Source: Spirochaetia bacterium
GTDB taxonomy: Bacteria > Spirochaetota > Spirochaetia > PWKH01
Direction of reading: 5' to 3'
NCBI GenBank assembly: GCA_007128345.1
Contig: SKXS01000024.1
Span: 1 to 34,284, forward strand
DNA length: 34,284 bases
Shown here: positions 5,341 through 30,985 of the stretch, in pieces
How positions within the stretch are numbered: the stretch's first letter is position 1
Layout of the letters: each line of letters opens with the position of its first letter
Program-made: the position numbers and the translations under genes
The notes under the pieces: model-generated
What the model was told of the DNA's origin: nothing
What the model saw: only the letters and a program-made list of their open reading frames with translations
Databases searched by the model: none

Positions 5341-6999
5341 ATGGCCTATTCACCCCTTCAGCAGGTACGCTACGGCTACCAACCAAAACTTCCCGGAGTG
5401 CTTCGAGAAGACATCAGGAAGATGACCCCAATGAAGGGGGCAGCCACTGAGTCGGCATCTGACCACTCGGAGATTCGAGAACGGTTTCCCCATACCTACG
5501 GCATGCCCATGGTGCGCTTCGAGCAGGGAGAGAATCCCGATGTTCCGGAAAAACGAAATATCGGTGTGGTGCTCTCCGGCGGGCAGGCGCCGGGAGGGCA
5601 CAATGTCATAGCCGGGCTCTACGATGCGCTGGCAAGCGCCAATCCGGAATCAAAGCTCTACGGATTCATCGGCGGTCCTTCGGGCATTCTCAAGGACGAC
5701 TGCCGTGAGCTCACGGGAGCAGTCATTGACGAGTACCGCAACACAGGTGGATTCGACATCATCGGGTCCGGCAGGACCAAGCTGGAATCCGAAAGCGACT
5801 TTGCGCAGTGCGCCAAGGTCTGCAACGCCCGTTCCATCTGCGCGCTGGTGATCATAGGAGGAGATGATTCAAACACAAATGCTGCAATGCTTGCCGAATA
5901 CTTTGTCCGCAACAAATCAGGCATACAGGTGATCGGGGTGCCCAAGACAATTGACGGAGATCTGAAAAACGAACACATTGAGGCATCCTTCGGATTCGAT
6001 ACCGCCACCAAAACCTATGCGGAGCTCATTGGAAATATCCAGCGTGACGCCAATTCATCCCGCAAGTACTGGCACTTCATTAAGCTCATGGGACGCAGCG
6101 CTTCTCACATATGCCTCGAATGCGCCCTGCTTACCCGTCCTACCATGGCCCTCATATCAGAGGAGGTGGAAGCGAAAAAGCAGACCCTCGGCGACATCGT
6201 ATCCCAGATAACCGACTGCGTGGTCTCCCGCGGCAGGCAAGGGATGCACTTCGGCATCGTCCTGGTTCCCGAAGGGCTCATCGAGTTCATCCCCGAAATG
6301 AAGACCCTCATATCGCGCCTCAATGACCTGCTGGCGCAGGACGGCGGGGAGATATCAGGTATAGAAGATCCTCTACAGCGATGCACCAAGGTAGCGACGC
6401 TGCTCCCGAAAGCAAGCGGATCACTGTTCAGCACTCTGCCCCAGGAAATCCAGATGCAGCTGCTGCTTGACCGTGACCCCCACGGCAATGTGCAGGTATC
6501 CCGTATTGAAACTGAAAAACTCCTCATCCAGATGGTCGCTGACCGGCTCAGGCATCTCAGGCAGGAGGGGATCTATACCGGACCGTTCAGCTCACAGCAC
6601 CACTTCTTCGGCTACGAAGGACGGTGCGCATTCCCGTCAAACTTTGATGCTGACTACTGCTACTCCCTCGGGTATACCGCATTCCTGCTCATTGCATCAG
6701 GCCTTACCGGGTATATATCTTCAGTCACCGGTCTTTCCAAACCCGCAGACAAATGGAATGCAGGGGGAGTTCCCATCACCATGATGATGAATATGGAAAA
6801 GCGTCACGGTTCACAGAAATCTGTAATCAGGAAGGCTCTGGTGGAACTCGACGGCAAGCCCTTTGGGGTGTTTGCAGCATCACGCGATGCCTGGGCTTCG
6901 GGCAACGAATTCCTCTATCCCGGTGCCATCCAGTATTTCGGTCCACCCGAGGTATGCGACCAGCCGTCGGTCACCCTAACCCTGGAACAGGAATCCTGA
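5341..6999 (+). CDS. pfp: Pyrophosphate-dependent 6-phosphofructokinase
   Basis: A 552-residue enzyme phosphorylating fructose 6-phosphate with pyrophosphate instead of ATP, reversibly, so it serves both glycolysis and gluconeogenesis. It is of the long (about 550-residue) form found in spirochaetes and plants. Visible motifs are [15 protein letters not shown] (GGQAPGG at 80-86), the phosphoryl-donor loop [10 protein letters not shown] (173-182; aspartate at the second D is the PPi-type signature) and the catalytic PKTIDGDL (201-208). C-terminal features include [13 protein letters not shown] and [14 protein letters not shown]. The ATG at 5341 has AGGAG six bases upstream; a TTG six bases earlier is less likely. 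It is transcribed alone from its own promoter and ends in a hairpin shared with the convergent dehydrogenase gene. Confidence 0.96.
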
Positions 7000-7015
7000 A
7001 GCATTCAGGAATTCC
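6990..7015. terminator. Hairpin between pfp and the convergent dehydrogenase gene
   Basis: GGAAT-CCTGAA (6990-7000), loop GCA, then TTCAGG-A-ATTCC (7004-7015) forms an 11-bp stem with one bulged A. It spans the pfp stop codon and ends six bases before the opposite gene's stop. There is no T-run. It probably acts in both directions. Confidence 0.5.
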
Positions 7016-7020
7016 GTGCA

Positions 7021-8193
7021 TTATAAGCGGCTCAGAAGCACTGCCTCCAGTTCCCCGGCATCCAGGATGACCGGGGCCTGCTTGCAGTCGGAAGCAGCCG
7101 CGGCGCGTTTCAGCTTCTCTTTGGTAAATCCGTATTCTGAAAGCCTCGGCCTGACAAGCTGCTCCTGCCACCGTGAAAGGGTGTTCAGCAGCATGGGTAT
7201 TCCATCTTCCGCAGTGCATGTGTCACTGCTGCCTGCAAGGGCGCATCCCGCACGGGCATACTTCCGGTAGGTTTCCCCGTCTCTATAGCCGCTTGATTCC
7301 AGCTTCCTGATGCTGGCAGCCGTTATTTCGAACAGCAGCGTGCCGCAGACAATATTGTGGGGAATATCCTGCATTCCTCCCAGAACGCCGGCAACCCCAT
7401 GGACAGCCCCGAGACCAGCGTTTGACAGTGTGATTCCTGAGAGGTATGCGGCAAGGAGCATCTGCGCCCTGAAATCTTCATCAGGCTCATCACGTACAGC
7501 TTTGTCGAACGCCGATCCGGCAAGGCAGAGCCCCTGGAGAGCAAGCGCATCAGTAATGGGATGTGCCCGCACCGAGACATAGGACTCAAGCAGCTGGGTC
7601 ACAGCATCAAGTCCCGATGCGGCTGTCACTGACGGGGGACAGGTGAGTGAGAGCTGCGGGTCAAGGACGGCAATATCAGGTGTGTAGGCTTCATGACGCA
7701 GGGACTTCTTGAAGCTTCCAATCCTGCTGATGACCGCGTTGAACGACGATTCGCTCCCCGTGCCTGCAGTGGTAGGTACCGCACTGAAGTGGACTCGCTT
7801 CCCCGACGGCTTCCGGTCCCCTACCCCTTCCAGGTAGCGCTCCACCCCAAGGGGTTCACACACCATAGCCGAGACGGCCTTAGCCGCGTCAATGACGCTC
7901 CCCCCGCCGACGGCCGTTACGGCCTGGACATGGAATTCCTTGGCTTCCCGCGTGATATCATCCACCAGTTCTACAGAGGGCTCTCCCTTCACCCGATGGA
8001 TCTGGCATGCAATGGAGGCATCCCTGAAAGCCTCTTCTATCCGTGCACGCCATCCTGAGCGGTCAAGGGAAGATCCTCCGGTCAGCAGCGCCGCCCGTTG
8101 AATCCCCATGCTTCCGAGCATCCCAGGAAGCTGCAGCACTCCCTGCGAAGCGCATACAAGCTGCCCTGTACTGTACATACGAAATTCCTTCAT
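7021..8193 (-). CDS. Iron-containing alcohol dehydrogenase family protein
   Basis: A 390-residue NAD(P)-dependent dehydrogenase of the iron-type (class III) family, close in length to FucO or YqhD-like enzymes. The nucleotide-binding motif GGGSVIDAAKA is at 97-107, followed by PTTAGTGSE. The metal site is recognisable. D196 in SGLDAVTQ, H265 in GLGAVHG and H279 in DIPHN match the family ligands D196, H263 and H277 of FucO, but the residue matching H200 is glutamine (Q200). Metal use or activity may therefore differ. The substrate is unknown. ATG 8193 follows the YhbY stop by only four bases. A second ATG five codons later has a better-placed AAGGA, so the start is uncertain by that much. It is the last gene of a five-gene minus-strand set. 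Confidence 0.88.
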   Translation of the reverse strand: MKEFRMYSTGQLVCASQGVLQLPGMLGSMGIQRAALLTGGSSLDRSGWRARIEEAFRDASIACQIHRVKGEPSVELVDDITREAKEFHVQAVTAVGGGSVIDAAKAVSAMVCEPLGVERYLEGVGDRKPSGKRVHFSAVPTTAGTGSESSFNAVISRIGSFKKSLRHEAYTPDIAVLDPQLSLTCPPSVTAASGLDAVTQLLESYVSVRAHPITDALALQGLCLAGSAFDKAVRDEPDEDFRAQMLLAAYLSGITLSNAGLGAVHGVAGVLGGMQDIPHNIVCGTLLFEITAASIRKLESSGYRDGETYRKYARAGCALAGSSDTCTAEDGIPMLLNTLSRWQEQLVRPRLSEYGFTKEKLKRAAAASDCKQAPVILDAGELEAVLLSRL

Positions 8194-21642: not shown

Positions 21643-22758
21643 CTAGAAGGATATACCGCCGGTGATCCGCAGCTTTGGCAGTTCCCCATCATAGGGATCA
21701 TCTCCGGTTTCGTTAAACAGCGGCAGTGCCGTCGCTGGGATCTGAATGGCTGCGTCGGCGGAGATATGGAGCAGTTCAACCCCGACTCCGAGGGAAAAGG
21801 TCCCCCGTGAAGGTTGTATGGCTCCCACCAGGACATCTGACAGATTTTCCAGCTGCTCAGCATAACCGGCCCGCACAGCGATGCGGTTGTAGTCCGTCAG
21901 GTAGAGACCGCCTTCCACCCCCAGCTGGAGCATTCTCCGGTCATCATCGCCGATATGATCGACGTCAAGAGAACCCATGACCCGAAAGGTATTGATTCTC
22001 CCAAACTGGTCGATTCTCCTGCTCCGCAGTCCTATTCCCACGTTGAGGTCGTCGGTGAGTCCGTTGAATGCGGGAAACTCCCGGTCCTGGGACCAGGCCA
22101 TGAAGTCAAAAAGCTTTTCATGGTACGCACCGACTGATACAATGCCGGTATCAAAGAGGATGCCGGCCTTCATGACCAGCACGTCATAGGCATCTCCTTT
22201 GGGCTCGTAGTCGCTGAGCATCAGATCGAGGGCCAAATCGTATATGGCCCCTATGCTCAGGTTATGCTGACCCATGGAGATGTTATCGGTGACACTCTCC
22301 TTTGAGGCCTGGAGGGATACGCCGAAGGAGAGCATGCCGATTCCCATGGCAGCCCCCACGTCGAGAGTATTGACCTTAGTCACTTCGTACGCGCCGTTAT
22401 TGAAGTCGGAGGGATTCATGTAGTAAGTTGAATGCATGCCGACCCCCCATCCGGGGGCAGTAAATACAAAACGGGGAATAAAGATAGGTGTATACTGCTG
22501 TTCCCCAAAGCTTCGGGGATCAGCATAGTCTTCGTACCCCAGAGTAAATCTGAACCTCCTGTCAGGAATGGTATCCAGTCCTGCGGGGTTCATGAACAAT
22601 GTGTTATGGTCATGGGCTACTGCGGTGTAGGCATGAGAAAGTCCGAATGCCCGGGCATCTCCCGGCGAGGTATAGTGTTCATGCCCTGCAAACAGCAATC
22701 CCGGTACAAGCATACAAAACATGGCGCACACCCATGCGCGAACAATTTTTTTAACCAC
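21643..22758 (-). CDS. Predicted outer-membrane beta-barrel protein (UPF0164-like)
   Basis: A 371-residue exported protein. The signal peptide is clear (MVKKIVRAWVCAMFCMLVPGLLFAG). The mature start, SPGDARAFGLSHAYTAVAHDHNTLFMNPAGL, is the conserved N-terminus of PorV/UPF0164/FadL-like barrels, where small loops plug the barrel. The rest alternates polar and hydrophobic residues and ends with an aromatic F (RITGGISF), as outer-membrane barrels do. Spirochaetes carry families of such proteins. GTG 22758 is chosen because AGGAG lies six bases upstream and gives a proper signal peptide. It follows the polyprenyl synthase gene after a 78-base AT-rich gap and may have its own promoter. Confidence 0.85.
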   Translation of the reverse strand: MVKKIVRAWVCAMFCMLVPGLLFAGHEHYTSPGDARAFGLSHAYTAVAHDHNTLFMNPAGLDTIPDRRFRFTLGYEDYADPRSFGEQQYTPIFIPRFVFTAPGWGVGMHSTYYMNPSDFNNGAYEVTKVNTLDVGAAMGIGMLSFGVSLQASKESVTDNISMGQHNLSIGAIYDLALDLMLSDYEPKGDAYDVLVMKAGILFDTGIVSVGAYHEKLFDFMAWSQDREFPAFNGLTDDLNVGIGLRSRRIDQFGRINTFRVMGSLDVDHIGDDDRRMLQLGVEGGLYLTDYNRIAVRAGYAEQLENLSDVLVGAIQPSRGTFSLGVGVELLHISADAAIQIPATALPLFNETGDDPYDGELPKLRITGGISF

Positions 22759-22836
22759 GTACAACTCCTGATATGTTTGTGCTACCATACATTAAACTAT
22801 TTACTTGATAAAAAGTTACAAAGAAATGTGAGACTG

Positions 22837-23817
22837 TTATGACTGCCGTTTTGCAAGCCTGTGCAGGAGTCTGCTCAGCGATTCCCGCGCATCGCATGCG
22901 GGGAGCCTGGAAAGCTCCCGATTTGCCTGCTGTTCATAGCTGCGGGCTGTCCGCCGGGCCGCATCCACCCCCCCGATCCTATGTATCTCAGCGATAATCT
23001 CGGGAATCTGCCGGTCTCCGGGGACAGCACCATCAAGCATACGCTTCAGCTTTCCGCTGCGGTCCATCTCCAGGGCGCAGATAAGCGGAAGCGTAGCGAT
23101 GCCTACGGTGAGGTCCTTGCCGACATCCTTTCCCATCCGGTTCGGCCTGCCGGTAATATCAAGTATGTCGTCGTGCATCTGGAAGGAGATGCCCAGGTTG
23201 TATCCGAAACGGGACAAGGCCCGCACCTGTCCGGCATCGAGCTTGCCCGCCGATGCCCCCAGGTAGCAGCTCAGTGAAAAGAGGGCGGCCGTCTTCCCAC
23301 CAATGCGCCGTATGTAACGGCTCTTCGGAATAAAGAAGTTTCCTATCTCGCTGTCCTGGTCGATCTCACTCTCGCACAGCTTTGCCATACGGTCTGACAC
23401 CACTTTGCTGTCGTAGGAACGCTTCATATCCTGAGAGAGGAGCGCGAATGCCCTCACCAGGATATAGTCCCCGGCAACCACGGCCTTGCGGTTTCCGATG
23501 CGCCGATGCAGGGTCTCCTCCCCTCTCCTGGCGGAGGCCTCATCAATGATGTCATCGTGGATAAGTGAAGCAGCGTGGACCAGTTCAATGCCTGCAGCCA
23601 GGGCTGTCACTTCCTCCTGCTGGCTGCTGCCGCTGCCCACCCAGGAAGCAAGGATGAGCAGGGCAGGCCTGAGCATCTTGCCCTGCTGGCTTGCAATGTC
23701 CTGGAGATGCGGCCTGATGTACCCGCGGGCTCCTGAAAGGGTTCCTTTGATGTTGACGCGGACGTGTTCAAGCCACTCAGCAAGCAGTGGGTCCTGGTTC
23801 CAGTACTCGTTGCTCAC
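22837..23817 (-). CDS. Polyprenyl diphosphate synthase (DmkA-like)
   Basis: A 326-residue trans-prenyltransferase making the polyprenyl chain of a quinone (or undecaprenyl-like lipid). Both aspartate-rich motifs are present: DDIID at 88-92 (LIHDDIIDEASARRG) and DDILD at 215-219 (FQMHDDILDITG). GKMLRPALLILA, VAGDYIL, GGKTAALF and KDVGKDLTVGIATLPLI are also conserved. It begins only seven bases after the stop of the type II NADH dehydrogenase gene, so the two are one operon. In Listeria the electron-transfer locus carries a similar synthase (dmkA) dedicated to a separate demethylmenaquinone pool. That is the likely role here. Confidence 0.93.
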   Translation of the reverse strand: MSNEYWNQDPLLAEWLEHVRVNIKGTLSGARGYIRPHLQDIASQQGKMLRPALLILASWVGSGSSQQEEVTALAAGIELVHAASLIHDDIIDEASARRGEETLHRRIGNRKAVVAGDYILVRAFALLSQDMKRSYDSKVVSDRMAKLCESEIDQDSEIGNFFIPKSRYIRRIGGKTAALFSLSCYLGASAGKLDAGQVRALSRFGYNLGISFQMHDDILDITGRPNRMGKDVGKDLTVGIATLPLICALEMDRSGKLKRMLDGAVPGDRQIPEIIAEIHRIGGVDAARRTARSYEQQANRELSRLPACDARESLSRLLHRLAKRQS

Positions 23818-23824
23818 GATGCAC

Positions 23825-25828
23825 TTAGCCTTTCTTCCTGAATCTCTTCTTTCGGACTACGGGTTCATCCAGGTAGAGGTACGTCTTGTGGGCAAGCCTG
23901 CAGCCGTTCCACCACTTCTTGATCCACGGCATCACCCAGTAGTCCAAGCCGAAGCACTTGCCTGCGCCTCCAAGCATGACGATGGATACCGCAATGTACC
24001 AGAGAATTTCCTGGCTGGCCAACGCGCCCATGAGCAGCATGAGTGAAAGCCCGATGGACGCAATCGCCGCTGGAAAGGTGAAAAGACCGACAAGGAAGGC
24101 CAGGCCTAAGGCAATTTCCCCGAGCACGATGGACACCTGGAAGAAATACGGCGCCTGGGCAACAAAGGTCTCATTTACCCACTGAAAGATTGCCGTAGGT
24201 TCACTCAGCAGGGGCGGAGCATACTGCGCCACCTCACCGCCGCCTGGGGTTGCCATGGTAAGCGCGTCAGTTGCGGCGGTGACCCCTTCTGCCCCGTTCT
24301 CCCAGGGGGTTGAAGTGGTTACAGCTGACACCCCTTCTGCCCCGTTTTCCAAGGGGGTTGAGCTGGTCACAGCTGACACCCCTTCTGCATCGTTGGCTTC
24401 CCAGGTTGCCCCTGCGGTACCGTCAGCACTTCCCCAGTACACCTTTCCCCCGGTTGTGTCGCTAAGCCAGCCTTGGGGAATCTTCTTGGCTCCTTCAATG
24501 AACCACATAACTCCCAAATACATCCTGAGGAAGGTCAGCCAGTAGGACTGGAGCTTGGCAGTAGCAAGTCCTCCTATGAATGATCGTTTGTTCTTTATAT
24601 CCAGGATCTCATGCTGCAGGTAGCGCCACCATCCGTTGATGCCGCAGGTCGTATGCTGGTAGTAGACATTGACCAGATGCTTCAGCCCCATGGCGAATAT
24701 GCCCGACATGGCTATGCCCATGGTGTACGAGACCGCGTAGCGGCCCCCAATGGACACCATGTACCCGTGGAAATTTGACTTGAATGGTTTAGGCTCCTTG
24801 GCACTGAAGCCAAGTTCCTTGCGTATTTCATAGACCATGCTGTCTACGGCGGTGAAAGCGGTCTGTTCAGCGGCCTCAACTGTCTGGGGAAGCGGAAGCT
24901 CATGCTCAATAAACCATACGGCATCGCCTGCCAGGTAGACTCGGTCGTAATCAACGCTCTTCATGTACTCATTGACCCGCTTCCTGGCCATCATTCCTTC
25001 AGCGAGGGGGAGCTTCTGGGCAAAATCGCTGCCCTTGATGCCGCAGGTCCAGATCACCGTATCGGACTTGATAACCGTCTTGTCCTTCAATGTGATGCTC
25101 CCCGGCTCAGCCTTCACAATGAATGAATTGAGCTTGATCTCCACGCCTTTCTTTTTCAGGTACTTCTCTGCCTTCATGCGGGGCTTTTCCGGCCAGGTAT
25201 TGAGGATCTTGCCGAGGCCTTCAACGGTGATAATCTGTATCTCGTCGGGGTCGGCCTTGAACTCCTTACAGAGGACAGGAATCCATTCAATAAGCTCTCC
25301 CACCATCTCAATACCGGTAAATCCTGCTCCTGCAACCACAAAGGTGAGCATCTGCCTGCGGCGCTCAGGGTCCTTCTCGTAGGAAGCCGCACGTACAGTA
25401 TCCTTGATGTGCTCACGTATCTTCAGGGCATCTGCAAGTCCCCACAGCGAGAACGCGTGCTCCTTGATGCCGGGAATGCCAAAGTCAGAGGACTCCGCTC
25501 CGGTACCCATGAGCAGGTAGTCGTAGCCGTAAGTCTCTGTACTTGAGGTGAGCGTCCGCCCCTCAAAGTCAATGGAAACGATGGTATCCTGCACCACCTT
25601 GACCATGCTGCCGGCGAATATCCGGTCAAAGGATATTTTAACCGATTCCTCCGGGACCCTGCCCCCTGCCAGTTCATGGAGCTCCGTCATGAGTACATGG
25701 AACGGATCCTTGTCTATGAGGGTGATCTCCACCCGGTCGCGCATTTTCTTAAACTGTTTGTGCAGCTTCTTTGCCGCGTGCACTCCTGCATATCCCCCGC
25801 CCAGCACAACTATCTGTATTGGTTTCAT
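23825..25828 (-). CDS. ndh2: Type II NADH dehydrogenase with a DoxX-like membrane tail
   Basis: A 667-residue protein. Residues 1 to about 400 form a flavin NADH:quinone oxidoreductase: FAD-binding VVLGGGYAGVHAAKKL (GGGYAG at 10-15), NAD-binding VVAGAGFTGIEMVGE (GAGFTG at 167-172), and the late FAD motif VYLAGDAVW. From about 430 it continues as a DoxX-like membrane part (FLRMYLGVMWFIEGAKKIPQGW, then three more hydrophobic segments between about 560 and 645). The loop between them (about 448-545) holds three 16-residue repeats. Listeria Ndh2 of the extracellular electron transfer locus also has an added membrane tail. ATG 25828 has GGAG six bases upstream. It is divergent from apbE and is followed at seven bases by the polyprenyl synthase. 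Confidence 0.92.
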   Translation of the reverse strand: MKPIQIVVLGGGYAGVHAAKKLHKQFKKMRDRVEITLIDKDPFHVLMTELHELAGGRVPEESVKISFDRIFAGSMVKVVQDTIVSIDFEGRTLTSSTETYGYDYLLMGTGAESSDFGIPGIKEHAFSLWGLADALKIREHIKDTVRAASYEKDPERRRQMLTFVVAGAGFTGIEMVGELIEWIPVLCKEFKADPDEIQIITVEGLGKILNTWPEKPRMKAEKYLKKKGVEIKLNSFIVKAEPGSITLKDKTVIKSDTVIWTCGIKGSDFAQKLPLAEGMMARKRVNEYMKSVDYDRVYLAGDAVWFIEHELPLPQTVEAAEQTAFTAVDSMVYEIRKELGFSAKEPKPFKSNFHGYMVSIGGRYAVSYTMGIAMSGIFAMGLKHLVNVYYQHTTCGINGWWRYLQHEILDIKNKRSFIGGLATAKLQSYWLTFLRMYLGVMWFIEGAKKIPQGWLSDTTGGKVYWGSADGTAGATWEANDAEGVSAVTSSTPLENGAEGVSAVTTSTPWENGAEGVTAATDALTMATPGGGEVAQYAPPLLSEPTAIFQWVNETFVAQAPYFFQVSIVLGEIALGLAFLVGLFTFPAAIASIGLSLMLLMGALASQEILWYIAVSIVMLGGAGKCFGLDYWVMPWIKKWWNGCRLAHKTYLYLDEPVVRKKRFRKKG
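24262..24402. repeat. 48-bp tandem repeat inside the NADH dehydrogenase gene
   Basis: The segment CCCCTTCTGC recurs at 24283, 24331 and 24379, an exact 48-base period. In the protein this gives about three 16-residue units (EGVSAVTSSTPLENGA, EGVSAVTTSTPWENGA, then a decayed EGVTAATDALT). The repeat lies in the Ser/Thr-rich loop between the first and later membrane segments of the DoxX-like tail. Confidence 0.9.
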
Positions 25829-25886
25829 GTATAACTCCATCTCCTAACCTATGCTTTCTATTCCAAAGTATTATTCTATCGCAGGG

Positions 25887-25915
25887 TTGTCAAGACTTAG
25901 CTTTTTCATCATAAT
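25887..25915 (+). promoter_or_regulatory. Promoter of apbE, probably leaderless
   Basis: -35 TTGTCA (25887-25892), a 17-base spacer, -10 CATAAT (25910-25915), then six bases to the ATG at 25922. No Shine-Dalgarno is present. The transcription start would fall at the start codon. Confidence 0.6.
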
Positions 25916-25921
25916 TATTTC

Positions 25922-27022
25922 ATGAGTAAATATCACATATTACGCAGCATTAATGTATTATTGTTAATAATATTACCATTGTTGTTTATAATTAACTGTT
26001 CTGACAATAAGAATTCACATAATAGTGCTGCTGTTTCACATAATCCGACGGCGAAAAACCACCTTGCGCTGGGCACAGCCTCCCGGGTTACTATTTATGA
26101 CCAGGAACCTGCACGGGCTGAGGAGATTCTCAAGCGTTCGTTTGCCCGGATTGACGATATTGAAGCGTCCATGACCCTCTACAACTCTGGCAGTGAGATC
26201 GCCAGGGTGAACAGGAACGCCGGAGGTCAGTTCACATCAGTTTCTGAGGAGACCTTTTTGGTCATCACCCAAGCCCTGGAGATAGCCGCTCAGACAGGCG
26301 GCGCTTTTGACCCGACCGTGGGGCCCTTGGTGAAGGCTTGGGGGATCGGATCAGACAACCCTATGATACCCGGAGAACAGGAGATGGCCATGCTCCTGGA
26401 CCTTGTGGACTATCGTGAGGTCGAACTCTCCCGTGAGGGCGGGGATTATCTTGTCAGGCTGAAGCGTCCCGACATGATGCTCGACCTCGGCGGCATAGCA
26501 AAAGGGTACGCCGCTGACGCGGTTAAGGAGGTGATCACGGGGATGGGCTCCTCGAGCGCCCTTATCAACCTGGGGGGAAACATTCTCCTGAAAGGAAGCA
26601 AGCCCGACGGCACACCCTGGAGGATAGGAATCCAGGATCCCGATGCAAACCGGGGAGCCTATGTGCTCATCCTTAATCTGACCTCGGGGACGGTGGTCAC
26701 ATCGGGCACGTATGAGCGGTTTTTCTACGATGCATCCGACCAGCGGTTCCACCACATCCTTGATCCGTGGGACGGATATCCCGTTGAAAACGGGCTGGAA
26801 AGCGTCACGATAGTCACTGAGAATTCCGCGTATGCCGACGGACTCTCCACAGGAGTGTTTGTTCTCGGACTCGAGCGGGGATGGGAGCTTGTGGAGTCGC
26901 TTCCGGGGGTGGATGCCGTGTTCATCACCGAGGATCAGAAGATATATATCACGCCGGGGATCACTTCCTATACGCTTTCAAACCAGGAATTCACTATCCG
27001 CAGCACCCTGCAGTCTCCTTGA
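25922..27022 (+). CDS. apbE: ApbE-type FMN transferase lipoprotein (FmnB-like)
   Basis: A 366-residue FAD:protein FMN transferase, which uses FAD to attach FMN covalently to Thr/Ser in exported proteins. The N-terminus is a lipoprotein signal (LLLIILPLLFIINCSDN, lipid-bearing C26), placing it outside the inner membrane. The family core is visible: IDDIEASMTLYNSGSEIARVN, GGAFDPTVGPLVKAWGIG, LDLGGIAKGYAADAV, ALINLGGNI, TSGTYERFF, HHILDPWDGYPVENG and SAYADGLSTGVFVLG, which has the conserved late metal-binding aspartate. The obvious substrate is the three-repeat FMN_bind protein at 28607. The first 120 bases or so of coding sequence are strikingly AT-rich against a GC-rich body. The tail overlaps the convergent EcfT-like gene by 29 bases. 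Confidence 0.94.
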   Translation: MSKYHILRSINVLLLIILPLLFIINCSDNKNSHNSAAVSHNPTAKNHLALGTASRVTIYDQEPARAEEILKRSFARIDDIEASMTLYNSGSEIARVNRNAGGQFTSVSEETFLVITQALEIAAQTGGAFDPTVGPLVKAWGIGSDNPMIPGEQEMAMLLDLVDYREVELSREGGDYLVRLKRPDMMLDLGGIAKGYAADAVKEVITGMGSSSALINLGGNILLKGSKPDGTPWRIGIQDPDANRGAYVLILNLTSGTVVTSGTYERFFYDASDQRFHHILDPWDGYPVENGLESVTIVTENSAYADGLSTGVFVLGLERGWELVESLPGVDAVFITEDQKIYITPGITSYTLSNQEFTIRSTLQSP

Positions 27023-27587
27023 AGTACAGCCATGCACCCCATACCGCCGCAGCTGCAGCGGCACTTATGACGGCAGTCAGCTTCCATGGACCTGCAGCCG
27101 CCTCAACTGCGTCGGGACTATCGGTTTCCATGCGTACAAGCAGCGCATCAAGACTGCTTACTATCTGTCCCGGCTTCAGGGAGAGACGGTGCTGGAGAAA
27201 CTGATTATAGTACGAGAACTGCATGCTCAGCAGCATGCCGATCCTTCCCGGGAACCTGGGCTTCCCTGATACCATGAACCGGGACAGATAGATCAAGGCG
27301 ATGAGGGTGAGGGCCTTGCGCAGTCCGATCTCCAGGGCTCCCTGGGTTATCGGGAGGGACCAGAGGGTGAACAGCACCCGTCCATGGGCCTGCAGAAGGT
27401 TAAGCGCCGTTACCGACACTATCATGATGATGTTCGGGAGCATCCGTATTCGCTCGCCCCGTATGATCTGGAGGATCATGAATATGATCACCTGGGCTGC
27501 CAGCGAGCCTACTGATGAATGGAAAACCACTGCAGGAAGCATCACCAGTCCTGCCGCCATGGGGATATTCCTGCTGCTGATCAACAC
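26994..27587 (-). CDS. EcfT-like membrane protein (FmnA-like)
   Basis: A 197-residue integral membrane protein with about five hydrophobic segments. It has a basic cytoplasmic region (ALEIGLRKALTLIALIYLSRFM) like the coupling helices of EcfT/CbiQ transmembrane components. In the Listeria extracellular electron transfer locus FmnA is an EcfT-type protein needed to supply FAD outside the membrane, and this gene sits in the matching company. The sequence likeness alone is modest. The start GTG 27587 (or TTG 27584) has AGGAGG just upstream and overlaps the stop of the Gx-family gene by seven bases, so translation is coupled. No EcfA ATPase genes are in the window. Confidence 0.68.
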   Translation of the reverse strand: MLISSRNIPMAAGLVMLPAVVFHSSVGSLAAQVIIFMILQIIRGERIRMLPNIIMIVSVTALNLLQAHGRVLFTLWSLPITQGALEIGLRKALTLIALIYLSRFMVSGKPRFPGRIGMLLSMQFSYYNQFLQHRLSLKPGQIVSSLDALLVRMETDSPDAVEAAAGPWKLTAVISAAAAAAVWGAWLYFKETAGCCG

Positions 27588-28123
27588 GGCGCCTCCTGAT
27601 CTGCAAGCCACCGGGAGGATCCCGCAAACTGCTCGGCAAACAGGCCCAGGAGGACCGATGTGACCAGCCCCATAATGAGAAACGGCGGGGCGATCAGCCA
27701 CGCACTGCGGCCGAAAAGCAGCACTCCGGCCAGTATAAGCTGTGAGCTGTTGCTCACCGTAGCCCCTGCTACGCTGATACCGACGAAGGTTATCCGCTTC
27801 CCGCAGGTTCGGTAAAGCAGGTACATCACCAGCGCGCTGGAGAGGGTTCCCGCCAGGGAAAAGAGAAAGACATAGGAGACTAATGTGCCGTGGATGATCC
27901 CCTGGCCAAGTACTTTGAGCACCACCAGGAGGGAATACTCCCGGGTATTCAGGGCGATCAGACCGATCATCACAGCCAGATTCGCAAGTCCTATGCGCAC
28001 AAAGGGCATGGGACGCGGGATGAGGTACTCAACTGTAGACAGAAAGAGTGCAAACGCAGCAAGCATGGCAACGGATCTGATACGCAGTTCCGCTCTGCCT
28101 GATGCCCGGTCAGAATGCGACAT
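27581..28123 (-). CDS. eetB: Gx transporter family membrane protein (EetB-like)
   Basis: A 180-residue membrane protein of the family once named heptaprenyl diphosphate synthase component I and now Gx transporter family. Conserved pieces are the N-terminal FLSTVEYLIPRPMPFVRIGLANL, LKVLGQGIIHGTLVSYVFLFSLAG and GATVSNSSQLILAG. About five to six membrane segments resemble the substrate-binding (S) components of ECF transporters. In Listeria the EetB protein of the flavin-based electron transfer locus belongs to this family. ATG 28123 has GGAGGTG upstream and lies inside the end of the EetA-like gene (14-base overlap). The EcfT-like gene overlaps its stop, so the three are one translational unit. 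Confidence 0.88.
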   Translation of the reverse strand: MSHSDRASGRAELRIRSVAMLAAFALFLSTVEYLIPRPMPFVRIGLANLAVMIGLIALNTREYSLLVVLKVLGQGIIHGTLVSYVFLFSLAGTLSSALVMYLLYRTCGKRITFVGISVAGATVSNSSQLILAGVLLFGRSAWLIAPPFLIMGLVTSVLLGLFAEQFAGSSRWLADQEAPC

Positions 28124-28493
28124 CGTCCACCTCCCGCTCTCCTGTTTCAATTCCTTCAATGCGGATGAAGACATCGTTGGGCAGGCAGATAATCCACTGC
28201 CCGATCCTGCTGATTGTCTTCATGGATTCGCAGACCTTGTTCCTGCAGGTTGAGTCCGACACATGCACGCCCCCCTGATGGATGGTTACCTCCGTCGGTC
28301 CCAGGGGTCCCGGGATGCTGACGACAGTGTCTGACTCAATTGAGTAGATCCACTGCTGCCCTGAAGCTTCAATGAGCACCTGGGGCGTGCCCTCCCTTGA
28401 TCCGTATACGGAGAATGCGAGCAGCCCTACGGCAATCACCGTGATTCCTATGATACCTGCATCCAGCAGCGTCAGTCGTTTCATCTCGGCCAT
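28110..28493 (-). CDS. eetA: NusG domain II membrane protein (EetA-like)
   Basis: A 127-residue protein with one N-terminal membrane anchor (about 8-30) and an extracytoplasmic NusG-domain-II fold, unrelated in role to transcription factor NusG. The signature is the C-terminal STCRNKVCESMKTISRIG and QWIICLPNDVFIRIEG, with cysteines C83, C88 and C103 in the family positions. EetA of the Listeria extracellular electron transfer locus is of this type and works with EetB to move electrons from quinol to outer flavins. The start could be ATG 28493 or the ATG three codons later; neither has a clear ribosome binding site. It leads the eetA-eetB-EcfT unit and is divergent from the FMN_bind gene. Confidence 0.88.
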   Translation of the reverse strand: MAEMKRLTLLDAGIIGITVIAVGLLAFSVYGSREGTPQVLIEASGQQWIYSIESDTVVSIPGPLGPTEVTIHQGGVHVSDSTCRNKVCESMKTISRIGQWIICLPNDVFIRIEGIETGEREVDDVAF

Positions 28494-28516
28494 GATATAC
28501 TATATTTTTTTGTTTT

Positions 28517-28545
28517 AATACAGGGGCAGATATATTGCATGACAA
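28517..28545 (-). promoter_or_regulatory. Promoter of the eetA-eetB-EcfT unit
   Basis: Minus strand: -35 TTGTCA (28545-28540), a 17-base spacer and -10 TGTATT (28522-28517). The expected leader before the ATG at 28493 is about 17 bases. It overlaps the plus-strand promoter of the FMN_bind gene, so the two would compete for polymerase. Confidence 0.5.
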
Positions 28546-28563
28546 AAACAATTAGCTTATAAT
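28535..28563 (+). promoter_or_regulatory. Promoter of the triple FMN_bind gene
   Basis: -35-like TTGCAT (28535-28540), a 17-base spacer and a perfect -10 TATAAT (28558-28563). It is followed by an inverted repeat, then GGAGGAA before the ATG at 28607. Confidence 0.55.
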
Positions 28564-28567
28564 TTTG

Positions 28568-28585
28568 ATATAGTATTATCTATAT
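28568..28585. promoter_or_regulatory. Inverted repeat, candidate operator
   Basis: ATATAG-N6-CTATAT lies 4-22 bases after the TATAAT box, across the expected transcription start of the FMN_bind gene. A dimeric repressor bound here would block that promoter. AT-rich surroundings make chance symmetry possible. Confidence 0.35.
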
Positions 28586-28606
28586 ACGTAATCGGAGGAA
28601 TTTACC

Positions 28607-29836
28607 ATGAAGAGACTCATCGCAGTACTCATTGTATTGACAATCGTCCTGGTTTCAGCAAGTGCTGCCGGGACACGCGACGTGTCGCACCTCATCCCTG
28701 TGGAATCTGCAGGATTTGAGGACGGCATCTATTTTGCCCAGGAACCCGGATTCGCGGAACGCAGCGGCTGGAAGTACGTCGTCACCCTTGAAGTGGCAGG
28801 AGGCAGGATCGTATCAGCTGACTGGAACGGGGCGCACCGGAATGCCGGCCTTGACAAAAAGACCCTGGATAAAATGGGCGGCTACCAGATGGTGGCCCGA
28901 GGCGGCGCCATAGACGAATGGTATGTCCAGGCGCAGCGGGTTGAGCAGAAGCTCATAGAAACCCAGGATCTCGCTTCCCTGCCCTACGATGAAGGCGGGT
29001 ACACCGACGCGGTGAGCGGAGTAACCATACATATCAATGAATTTGTGGATTTGGCAGCTGAAGCGCTTGCCCAGGGACCGGTAGGACGCGGACCCCATGC
29101 TGACGGGAGCTACTTTGCCCAGGATCTCCAGTTCCCTGAACGGGGAAGCTGGAAGAGCACCGTCAGGCTCACAGTCATCAACGGATACATCGTTGCAGCC
29201 AACTGGAGCGGAGTCAATCCGCAAGGTGACGACAAGAAGACCGTTGACCGTGCAGGCGGCTACCAGATGGTGGCACGGGGCGGCGCCATCGACGAGTGGT
29301 ACGTCCAGGCAGGACGGGTGGAGGCCCATCTGCTGGAGACACAGGATCCCCGCATCCCCTATGATGAAGGCGGGTACACCGACGCAGTCAGCGGCGTGAC
29401 CATCTATATTAATGATTTTGTCAGACTGGTCCACAAAGCCCTTGAGAAGGGTCCCGTGGGCGCACCTCCCTACGTTGACGGTAGGTACACCGCACAGGAG
29501 GCAGATTTCAACGAGCGGACCGGATGGAAGTCCACTATTGAGATCCTCGTTTCCGGCGGATTCATCGTTGATGTCAACTGGAGCGCAATTCACCGGGACG
29601 GACGTGACAAGAAGACCGTAGACCGTGCCGGAGAGTACCAGATGGTGGCCCGGGGCGGCGCCATAGACGAGTGGTACGTTCAGGCAGGCCGGGTGGAGGC
29701 CCATCTGCTGGAAACACAGAATCCCCACATCCCCCACGATGAGGGCGGGTACACCGATGCAATAAGCGGCGTGACCATCTACATAGATGACTTTGTCAAA
29801 CTCGCAGACAAGGCGCTCGAAGGAGCTCGAAGATAG
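28607..29836 (+). CDS. Exported protein with three FMN_bind repeats (PplA-like)
   Basis: A 409-residue exported electron carrier candidate. The N-terminus is a cleavable signal peptide (LIAVLIVLTIVLVSASA, cut near residue 20) with no lipobox cysteine. The mature protein is three copies of one FMN_bind-like domain. Each starts DGxYFAQ, continues through YQMVARGGAIDEWYVQAGRVE, and ends with an ApbE-type attachment motif YTDAVSGVTI (DAISGVT in copy 3). The threonines expected to carry FMN are T140, T265 and T390, exactly 125 residues apart. Listeria PplA has two such domains and a lipid anchor; this one has three and seems soluble. GGAGGAA lies six bases before the ATG, and a strong terminator follows. 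The nearby apbE product would load it. Confidence 0.88.
   Translation: MKRLIAVLIVLTIVLVSASAAGTRDVSHLIPVESAGFEDGIYFAQEPGFAERSGWKYVVTLEVAGGRIVSADWNGAHRNAGLDKKTLDKMGGYQMVARGGAIDEWYVQAQRVEQKLIETQDLASLPYDEGGYTDAVSGVTIHINEFVDLAAEALAQGPVGRGPHADGSYFAQDLQFPERGSWKSTVRLTVINGYIVAANWSGVNPQGDDKKTVDRAGGYQMVARGGAIDEWYVQAGRVEAHLLETQDPRIPYDEGGYTDAVSGVTIYINDFVRLVHKALEKGPVGAPPYVDGRYTAQEADFNERTGWKSTIEILVSGGFIVDVNWSAIHRDGRDKKTVDRAGEYQMVARGGAIDEWYVQAGRVEAHLLETQNPHIPHDEGGYTDAISGVTIYIDDFVKLADKALEGARR
28712..29833 (+). repeat. Three tandem 375-bp domain repeats
   Basis: The coding sequence consists of three in-frame units with a 375-base period, for example GGCGGGTACACCGA recurring in each. Copies 2 and 3 are most alike at the base level, which suggests a later duplication. 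Copy 1 has two extra residues before its SGVT motif region (DLASLPYDEGG), balanced elsewhere. Confidence 0.85.
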
Positions 29837-29842
29837 CACACC

Positions 29843-29870
29843 AAACGGCCAGGAAGTCACCTGGCCGTTT
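29843..29870 (+). terminator. Terminator of the triple FMN_bind gene
   Basis: AAACGGCCAGG (29843-29853), loop AAGTCA, CCTGGCCGTTT (29860-29870), followed by CCTTTCTGCTT. The perfect 11-bp GC-rich stem with a T-rich tail is typical of a factor-independent terminator. It starts six bases after the stop codon. Confidence 0.85.
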
Positions 29871-29914: not shown

Positions 29915-30985
29915 ATGAAACTGTTCACCAAGTTCCGCAGACGCAGGGACGTGACGATCCTCTCCATAGACGGCGGGGGGGTGAGAGGCATCATTCCCAT
30001 CACCGTCCTGCTGGCGCTGCAGCAGGAAATGGAGCTCCAGGACATCAAGCTGCCTCTGTATGCCTGTTTCGACCTGATAGCGGGATCTTCCACCGGAGGC
30101 CTGGTGGCCCTAGGCCTGGCGGCCCCCAATGCGAACCTTCCGAAAGATGATGCTTCACCTGACAGACCGAAGCAGCGGAACCTCCCCGCTCCCATCCTGC
30201 CCGCAATGACATTGGAGAGCATCCTCCATATCTATGAAGCGCGAAGCGGAGACATCTTCCCCCAGGGTCCCCTGAAGGACCTCAGGGCTCTCGCACAGCT
30301 GTTTACCGAGAAGTACCAGGAAGACTCCCTGGAAAATCTGATTTATGAAATTTTCGGCGACCTCTCCATGGCGGATGCTCTGACACCAGCAATGATTACC
30401 TCCTACGAATGTCTTTCCGGAGAACCCTTCCTCTTCACATCCTATGCCGACCACCCCTACCGCATGCGGGAAGCAGCCAGGGCGACCACCGCCGCACCTA
30501 CCTATTTTTCCCCTACGGTCATCAGGTCACCTGAAGACGGGACAAACAGGTGCTTCATAGACGGCGGGGTGGCGGCAAACAATCCCGCGCTCTACGCCTA
30601 CTGCGAGGCCAGGAAGCTCTATCCTGAGGCGATACGGTTTCACATCCTCTCAATCGGCACATCGGGAAGTTCCTTCTCCGTATCCATGGGCAACATTAAG
30701 CGTATGGGAATTCTTGACTGGATTTCTCCTGCAAAGGGTGTTCCCCTGCTCAACGCCTATGCCGCCAGCCAGTACTATACCCAGGAGCATGTGCTGAAGA
30801 ATATTGAGGGGGTGACCTATCACCGTATTGCCGGAAACAAGGGGAATATATCAATTCCTATGGATGACTCCAGCAGGGAGAACATCCTGCGCGTCAAGCG
30901 AACCGCAAGCGCCATTGTCAGGGACCACGAGGAGGTGATCGAAGCGTACTGCAGGCTCTACCTCGCCAACCGACGGCATGCGTGA
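29915..30985 (+). CDS. Patatin-like phospholipase
   Basis: A 356-residue cytosolic lipid acyl hydrolase of the patatin family. The oxyanion loop ILSIDGGGVRGIIP comes first, then the nucleophile elbow AGSSTGG (S59) and the catalytic aspartate in FIDGGVAANNPA (D216), giving the complete Ser-Asp dyad. The order and spacing match bacterial patatins, including CapV-like ones. There is no signal peptide, so it acts inside the cell or at the inner membrane face. It lies just after the FMN_bind terminator and has its own promoter, so it is probably not part of the electron-transfer locus. No nucleotide cyclase gene is nearby that would suggest an anti-phage role. Its tail overlaps the nucleosidase gene by 28 bases on the opposite strand. 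Confidence 0.93.
   Translation: MKLFTKFRRRRDVTILSIDGGGVRGIIPITVLLALQQEMELQDIKLPLYACFDLIAGSSTGGLVALGLAAPNANLPKDDASPDRPKQRNLPAPILPAMTLESILHIYEARSGDIFPQGPLKDLRALAQLFTEKYQEDSLENLIYEIFGDLSMADALTPAMITSYECLSGEPFLFTSYADHPYRMREAARATTAAPTYFSPTVIRSPEDGTNRCFIDGGVAANNPALYAYCEARKLYPEAIRFHILSIGTSGSSFSVSMGNIKRMGILDWISPAKGVPLLNAYAASQYYTQEHVLKNIEGVTYHRIAGNKGNISIPMDDSSRENILRVKRTASAIVRDHEEVIEAYCRLYLANRRHA

Follow-up and report, generated by a model that had tools for sequence, protein, structure and literature searches.

Can a single exported spirochaete protein carry three covalent flavins, and what would it do with them? The question is raised by an open reading frame within a 34,284-nucleotide stretch of Spirochaetia bacterium DNA (the window; contig SKXS01000024.1), for which the original prediction proposed up to three covalent FMN groups per chain. 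We find that the product is probably a multi-flavinylated carrier of the PplA-like clade, encoded in a spirochaete locus of the flavin-based EET type, soluble in the periplasm, bearing three FMNs and fed by Ndh2 and menaquinol. The features of the gene are listed below; the E-values given for the three domains come from profile A1, which was built with all three of them included, and are not independent:

28607 to 29836, plus strand: three-domain PplA-like exported flavoprotein, 409 residues (Pfam FMN_bind, NCBIfam PplA, AF2, Foldseek)
28607 to 28669, plus strand: signal peptide MKRLIAVLIVLTIVLVSASAA, without lipobox cysteine, end approximate (sequence)
28712 to 29074, plus strand: FMN_bind-type domain 1 (profile A1, E 1e-65)
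29006 to 29026, plus strand: site 1, DAVSGVT, Thr140 (sequence)
29093 to 29449, plus strand: FMN_bind-type domain 2 (profile A1, E 4.5e-65)
29381 to 29401, plus strand: site 2, DAVSGVT, Thr265 (sequence)
29468 to 29821, plus strand: FMN_bind-type domain 3 (profile A1, E 2.2e-65)
29756 to 29776, plus strand: site 3, DAISGVT, Thr390 (sequence)
29843 to 29870, plus strand: terminator-like hairpin 3' of the gene, 11 pairs, 7 of them GC (consensus scan only)

The reading frame opens with an ATG downstream of a GGAGG, and its translation confirms T140, T265 and T390 within DA(V/I)SGVT motifs, separated as predicted by 125 and 125 residues. Chance is excluded as the origin of the repeated motif, since at least two copies arose in 0 of 20,000 shuffled versions of the protein. 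The value of 125 is an ordinary repeat length; across the family, acceptors lie 117–129 residues apart, mostly 124–128. Calling the domains near-identical proved too strong: protein identity is 64% between D1 and D2, 60% between D1 and D3, and 69% between D2 and D3, with 63–73% identity at the DNA level. Together with these identities, a dN of 0.23–0.33, well below the dS of 0.8–2.2, indicates that the domain copies are old, conserved and under purifying selection.

Pfam FMN_bind (PF04205) scores the whole protein at 33.1 bits, above its curated cut-off of 22. NCBIfam PplA (NF041941) matches at 4e-18 and 65.6 bits, far below its 325-bit cut-off, which places the protein outside this equivalog; members above the cut-off in this analysis score 440–495 bits. 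The AlphaFold2 model, computed with 19 relatives (pLDDT 90.2, pTM 0.83), consists of three domains in which helices follow three strands, and both GPVG linkers are modelled with high confidence. Foldseek aligned the model to 2kzx and 3o6u with a probability of 1.00 and to no other credible match. The closest solved domain is 2kzx (A3DHT5, Clostridium thermocellum, NMR; 51% identity to domain 1, E 1e-31), which unlike the window protein has only one domain and an SGAT site and is entered as uncharacterised. Next is CPE2226 (3o6u), whose fold has been reported as the closest to those of SaFMN3-D2 and CbFMN4-D1, two domains with covalent FMN (PMC10339131). When aligned to 3o6u, the protein offers W55/W182/W307 and M95/M221/M346 as residues that may flank the flavin; among 151 non-redundant domains, 133 have W in the first of these columns and 133 have M in the second.

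More than one FMN_bind domain on an extracytosolic chain defines the multi-flavinylated class, and the window protein has three such domains behind an N-terminal signal sequence. This class is already published (PMC8238504, PMC10339131): exported chains with several FMN_bind domains are encoded next to apbE (Meheust et al. 2021, PMC8238504), and SaFMN3 has three covalent FMNs proven by mass spectrometry (Tong et al. 2023, PMC10339131). The domains of SaFMN3 and CbFMN4 are smaller (~84–88 residues), with flexible linkers and GAT motifs, whereas those of the window protein measure ~120 residues and are joined by a conserved GPVG linker. The window protein is a real, well-formed candidate multi-flavin carrier within the class. 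Three FMN_bind-fold domains with intact sites beside apbE make up to three covalent FMNs per chain, as originally proposed, the best reading of the sequence.

Nor is the triple-domain architecture itself unusual, as had been suggested. We found 80 loci in named Spirochaetota and Bacillota genomes, using scan patterns that excluded the attachment motif and therefore left motif counts unbiased. Matches to the domain profile occur in 29 of 393 Spirochaetota genomes, and all four examined genomes of the window organism's order encode a PplA-like domain. Relatives have between one and five domains: 74 proteins have two, 26 have three, two have four and one has five, in a tally where some genomes were sampled twice. 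The four-domain versions are in L040 and L041; the five-domain protein (L061, 450–2471, plus strand) has DDIAGVS in every domain and no lipobox. A tree built from 57 domains of three-domain proteins places all 12 from the window family in one group (100/99), apart from the Sphaerochaeta-type and Bacillota-type domains, so triple proteins arose, or had their copies homogenised, on more than one occasion. The Sphaerochaeta and CSSed10/CSBr16 lipoproteins (L035-L037, L048-L078) resemble the window protein in having three domains, mostly V-type sites and the same locus order; outside the window's family, their acceptor is mostly S, not T.

Listeria and Enterococcus PplA (NF041941) shares with the window protein tandem FMN_bind-type domains of ~120–125 residues, at ~20–30% identity. 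The Listeria carrier has two sites, in line with the two domains given in the original prediction, at Thr143 and Thr265 (PMC8906456). PplA has two domains, TGAT sites and a lipid anchor in a monoderm host; the window protein has three domains, SGVT sites and no anchor in a diderm spirochaete.

The absent lipobox, rather than the valine or the domain count, is what distinguishes the window protein. It contains zero cysteines and hence no lipobox or lipid anchor, setting it apart from the PplA lipoproteins and bearing out the plain signal peptide predicted for it. Residues 1–21, a hydrophobic N-terminus ending in SASAA, look like a type I signal peptide. Judged by a simple sequence pattern, a lipobox is present in 60 of 60 Bacillota relatives, and in Spirochaetota 24 relatives have one and 21 lack it. 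All 18 three-domain spirochaete relatives carry the lipobox cysteine, including those of three same-family genomes, and the window protein is the sole exception; the four- and five-domain proteins (L040, L041, L061) are likewise without one, as are most spirochaete proteins with two domains. Loss of the anchor appears to be recurrent in diderm spirochaetes and is unseen in monoderms, a pattern that would fit retention by the outer membrane.

The gene stands at one end of a locus (22837–29836) whose other members are:

28110 to 28493, minus strand: EetA homologue, NusG domain II (Pfam NusG_II 1.4e-19; synteny)
27581 to 28174, minus strand: EetB homologue (Hpre_diP_synt_I), ECF-S-like FAD-export subunit (Pfam PF07456 4.5e-37; role from PMC9973259)
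26994 to 27701, minus strand: FmnA-equivalent ECF-T-like membrane protein (fold comparison; fused to EetB in L068)
25922 to 27022, plus strand: ApbE/FmnB flavin transferase (Pfam ApbE 7e-91; best PDB match Listeria FmnB 7esa, 5e-67)
23825 to 25840, minus strand: Ndh2-type NADH dehydrogenase with a C-terminal membrane (weak DoxX) region (Pyr_redox_2 5e-34; DoxX 0.0015, below its cut-off)
22837 to 23817, minus strand: polyprenyl diphosphate synthase, DmkB equivalent (polyprenyl_synt 2.6e-56; HepT-like 1.5e-59)

Ndh2, DmkB, FmnA (by fold only), FmnB, EetA, EetB and a PplA-like protein are thus co-located, the same gene set as in Listeria and Enterococcus EET. With a MenA-like DHNA prenyltransferase homologue (DmkA-like) encoded elsewhere in the window genome, no named component of the Listeria pathway lacks a counterpart. 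The spirochaetes L035, L036, L040, L041, L052, L054, L059, L067, L074 and L078 share gene order and strands with the window over the extent of their contigs, and Bacillota relatives have different orders. Our literature search found no description of this locus among work on spirochaete flavin EET, which is weak evidence of absence.

The FmnA-like assignment comes from structure: Pfam gave no match in nine members, the model is of moderate quality (pLDDT 72), and the ten best Foldseek matches are all ECF-T/CbiQ subunits, with a best E of only 0.023 and a probability of 1.00. Its GTG start is probably placed too far upstream, as most relatives begin near residue 35–40. In L068 a single open reading frame (6198–7511, minus strand) joins the EetB-like and FmnA-like (ECF-S and ECF-T) parts, which supports their pairing as one transporter, and the window pair fits the Listeria EetB-FmnA FAD exporter (PMC9973259). 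The window ApbE is the only one found in the genome, has a lipobox-like N-terminus (LLFIINC), and retains the residues that align with S257, E261, R262, H273 and D301 of FmnB (alignment to 7esa), named as catalytic in PMC8906456. We set aside a role as an FAD-pyrophosphatase-only enzyme of the Treponema Ftp kind, because Listeria FmnB gives the best alignment with the window ApbE and because FMN transfer is reported for both Ftp classes once a protein substrate is supplied (PMC4767422).

Several other features lie in or next to these genes. Within ndh2, a 48-bp tandem repeat (24282–24388, 2.2 copies, 91%) encodes 16-residue units repeated within the C-terminal membrane region, and relatives have differing Ala/Ser/Val-rich inserts at this position. 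Downstream of the PplA-like gene, a patatin-like phospholipase (29915–30985, plus strand) comes near a CBASS effector model (169 bits against a cut-off of 200); a patatin-like gene is also found 3' of the PplA-like gene in the same-family L035-L037, a conserved adjacency. Beside the polyprenyl synthase is a weak PorV-family match (21643–22788, minus strand), also seen in L036, which may either act as a partner in the outer membrane or be adjacent by chance.

These components suggest a route for electrons. The EetB/ECF-T (FmnA-like) pair would export FAD, by homology, and ApbE (FmnB-like) would move FMN from it onto T140, T265 and T390. Electrons would then pass from NADH through Ndh2 and menaquinol to the three FMNs, and the protein would carry them through the periplasm toward an acceptor. 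Given a diderm host and a plain signal peptide, the protein most likely shuttles electrons in soluble form within the periplasm, on three equivalent flavins, instead of acting as a surface-anchored reductase. The three FMNs of SaFMN3 share one potential of -184 mV (PMC10339131); by analogy, having several copies is more likely to add capacity and reach than to form a downhill wire. Neither a terminal acceptor nor any route across the outer membrane was found. A flavinylated fumarate reductase was rejected as terminal partner, as the only FAD_binding_2 match of the genome at 1e-10 resembles an L-aspartate oxidase and sits beside a nadA-like gene.

The valine of the attachment motif bears on whether ApbE would modify these sites. 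The acceptor motif of ApbE is given as Dxx[S/T]GA[S/T] (review PMC12052999), from which the window protein departs with SGVT at all three sites. The original prediction was right that A is usual here: characterised-type PplA (NF041941, 440–495 bits) carries DVVTGAT, and lower scorers DTITGAT or DAVTGAT. It suggested that the valine may be a local variant matched to the neighbouring ApbE; read in this way, SGVT would be a recognition sequence co-evolved with that enzyme, which would prefer V sites. The uniform V within the protein speaks for this idea, as does a Klebsiella fumarate reductase in which an A-to-V change at this position left flavinylation at about half (Bertsova 2019, as summarised in PMC12052999). 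However, V occupies the sixth motif position in 122 of 151 non-redundant domains of the PplA-like clade and A in 26, and it is the norm in two phyla (60 of 63 domains in Bacillota, 62 of 88 in Spirochaetota). V and A sites are mixed within one chain in 27 of 103 multi-domain proteins. Moreover, V sites occur alongside SGAT/TGAT sites of other FMN_bind proteins in five closed genomes with one detectable ApbE (G006, G049, G326, G311 and G194), and the window genome (90% complete, one ApbE) encodes SITGAT, SISGST and SLSGAT proteins besides its V-type PplA-like sites. A clade-wide norm, and V and A together under one ApbE, point to a clade character rather than an adjustment to this enzyme; the comparison largely refutes local co-evolution, which we regard as very improbable. 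By sequence, V marks a sister clade of characterised-type PplA, and natural V sites are common and maintained by selection. Modification may be less efficient in the V clade, or else the published motif is drawn too narrowly, so the unproven claim is that these sites work like ApbE substrates; we found no biochemical data on SGV[T/S] sites of this clade in the literature examined.

A rival reading has flavin on just one or two sites, the other domains serving as structural spacers. V sites may be poorer targets, as the Klebsiella case hints, and two of the three same-family relatives each have one damaged motif in an otherwise intact three-domain protein (SSVT in domain 3 of L035, SRVT in domain 1 of L037), so that some sites may be neither needed nor used. 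All three window sites are intact, however, the candidate pocket tryptophan and methionine recur in every domain, and SaFMN3 is fully occupied (PMC10339131); partial flavinylation is accordingly rather unlikely. Slightly less doubtful, yet still not the reading we favour, is a protein held in the membrane by an uncleaved N-terminal helix, which would hand electrons on at the inner membrane instead of moving as a free shuttle. Residues 2–19 are modelled, with low confidence, as one hydrophobic helix, and SaFMN3 and CbFMN4 are predicted to have an N-terminal transmembrane segment (PMC10339131). Set against this, the ASA-A sequence would fit a signal peptidase I site, and most of the 21 other spirochaete relatives without a lipobox have cleavable-looking N-termini (for example ...SAQ and ...FAQ). 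The soluble, triply flavinylated carrier therefore stays our preferred reading.

With the multi-flavinylated class already described, the sequences leave two lesser points of interest: the likely ApbE substrates of this clade are V-type, and the EET locus of a diderm encodes a carrier that has no lipid anchor. Outer-membraned spirochaetes are now seen to encode a complete flavin electron-export locus of the Listeria type; as a periplasmic carrier cannot itself touch outside acceptors, the destination of its electrons becomes a testable question. Clades differ in their likely ApbE acceptor motif, since [S/T]GA[S/T] fits characterised Listeria-type PplA and misses four fifths of the PplA-like sites examined. 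Tentatively, and as a possibility we hold with considerable doubt, diderm spirochaetes may run Listeria-type flavin EET into the periplasm through a soluble triple-FMN carrier, rigidly spaced, that takes the role of multi-haem c-type cytochromes; at the same time, the V clade may represent a second recognition class of ApbE substrates missed by [S/T]GA[S/T] surveys.
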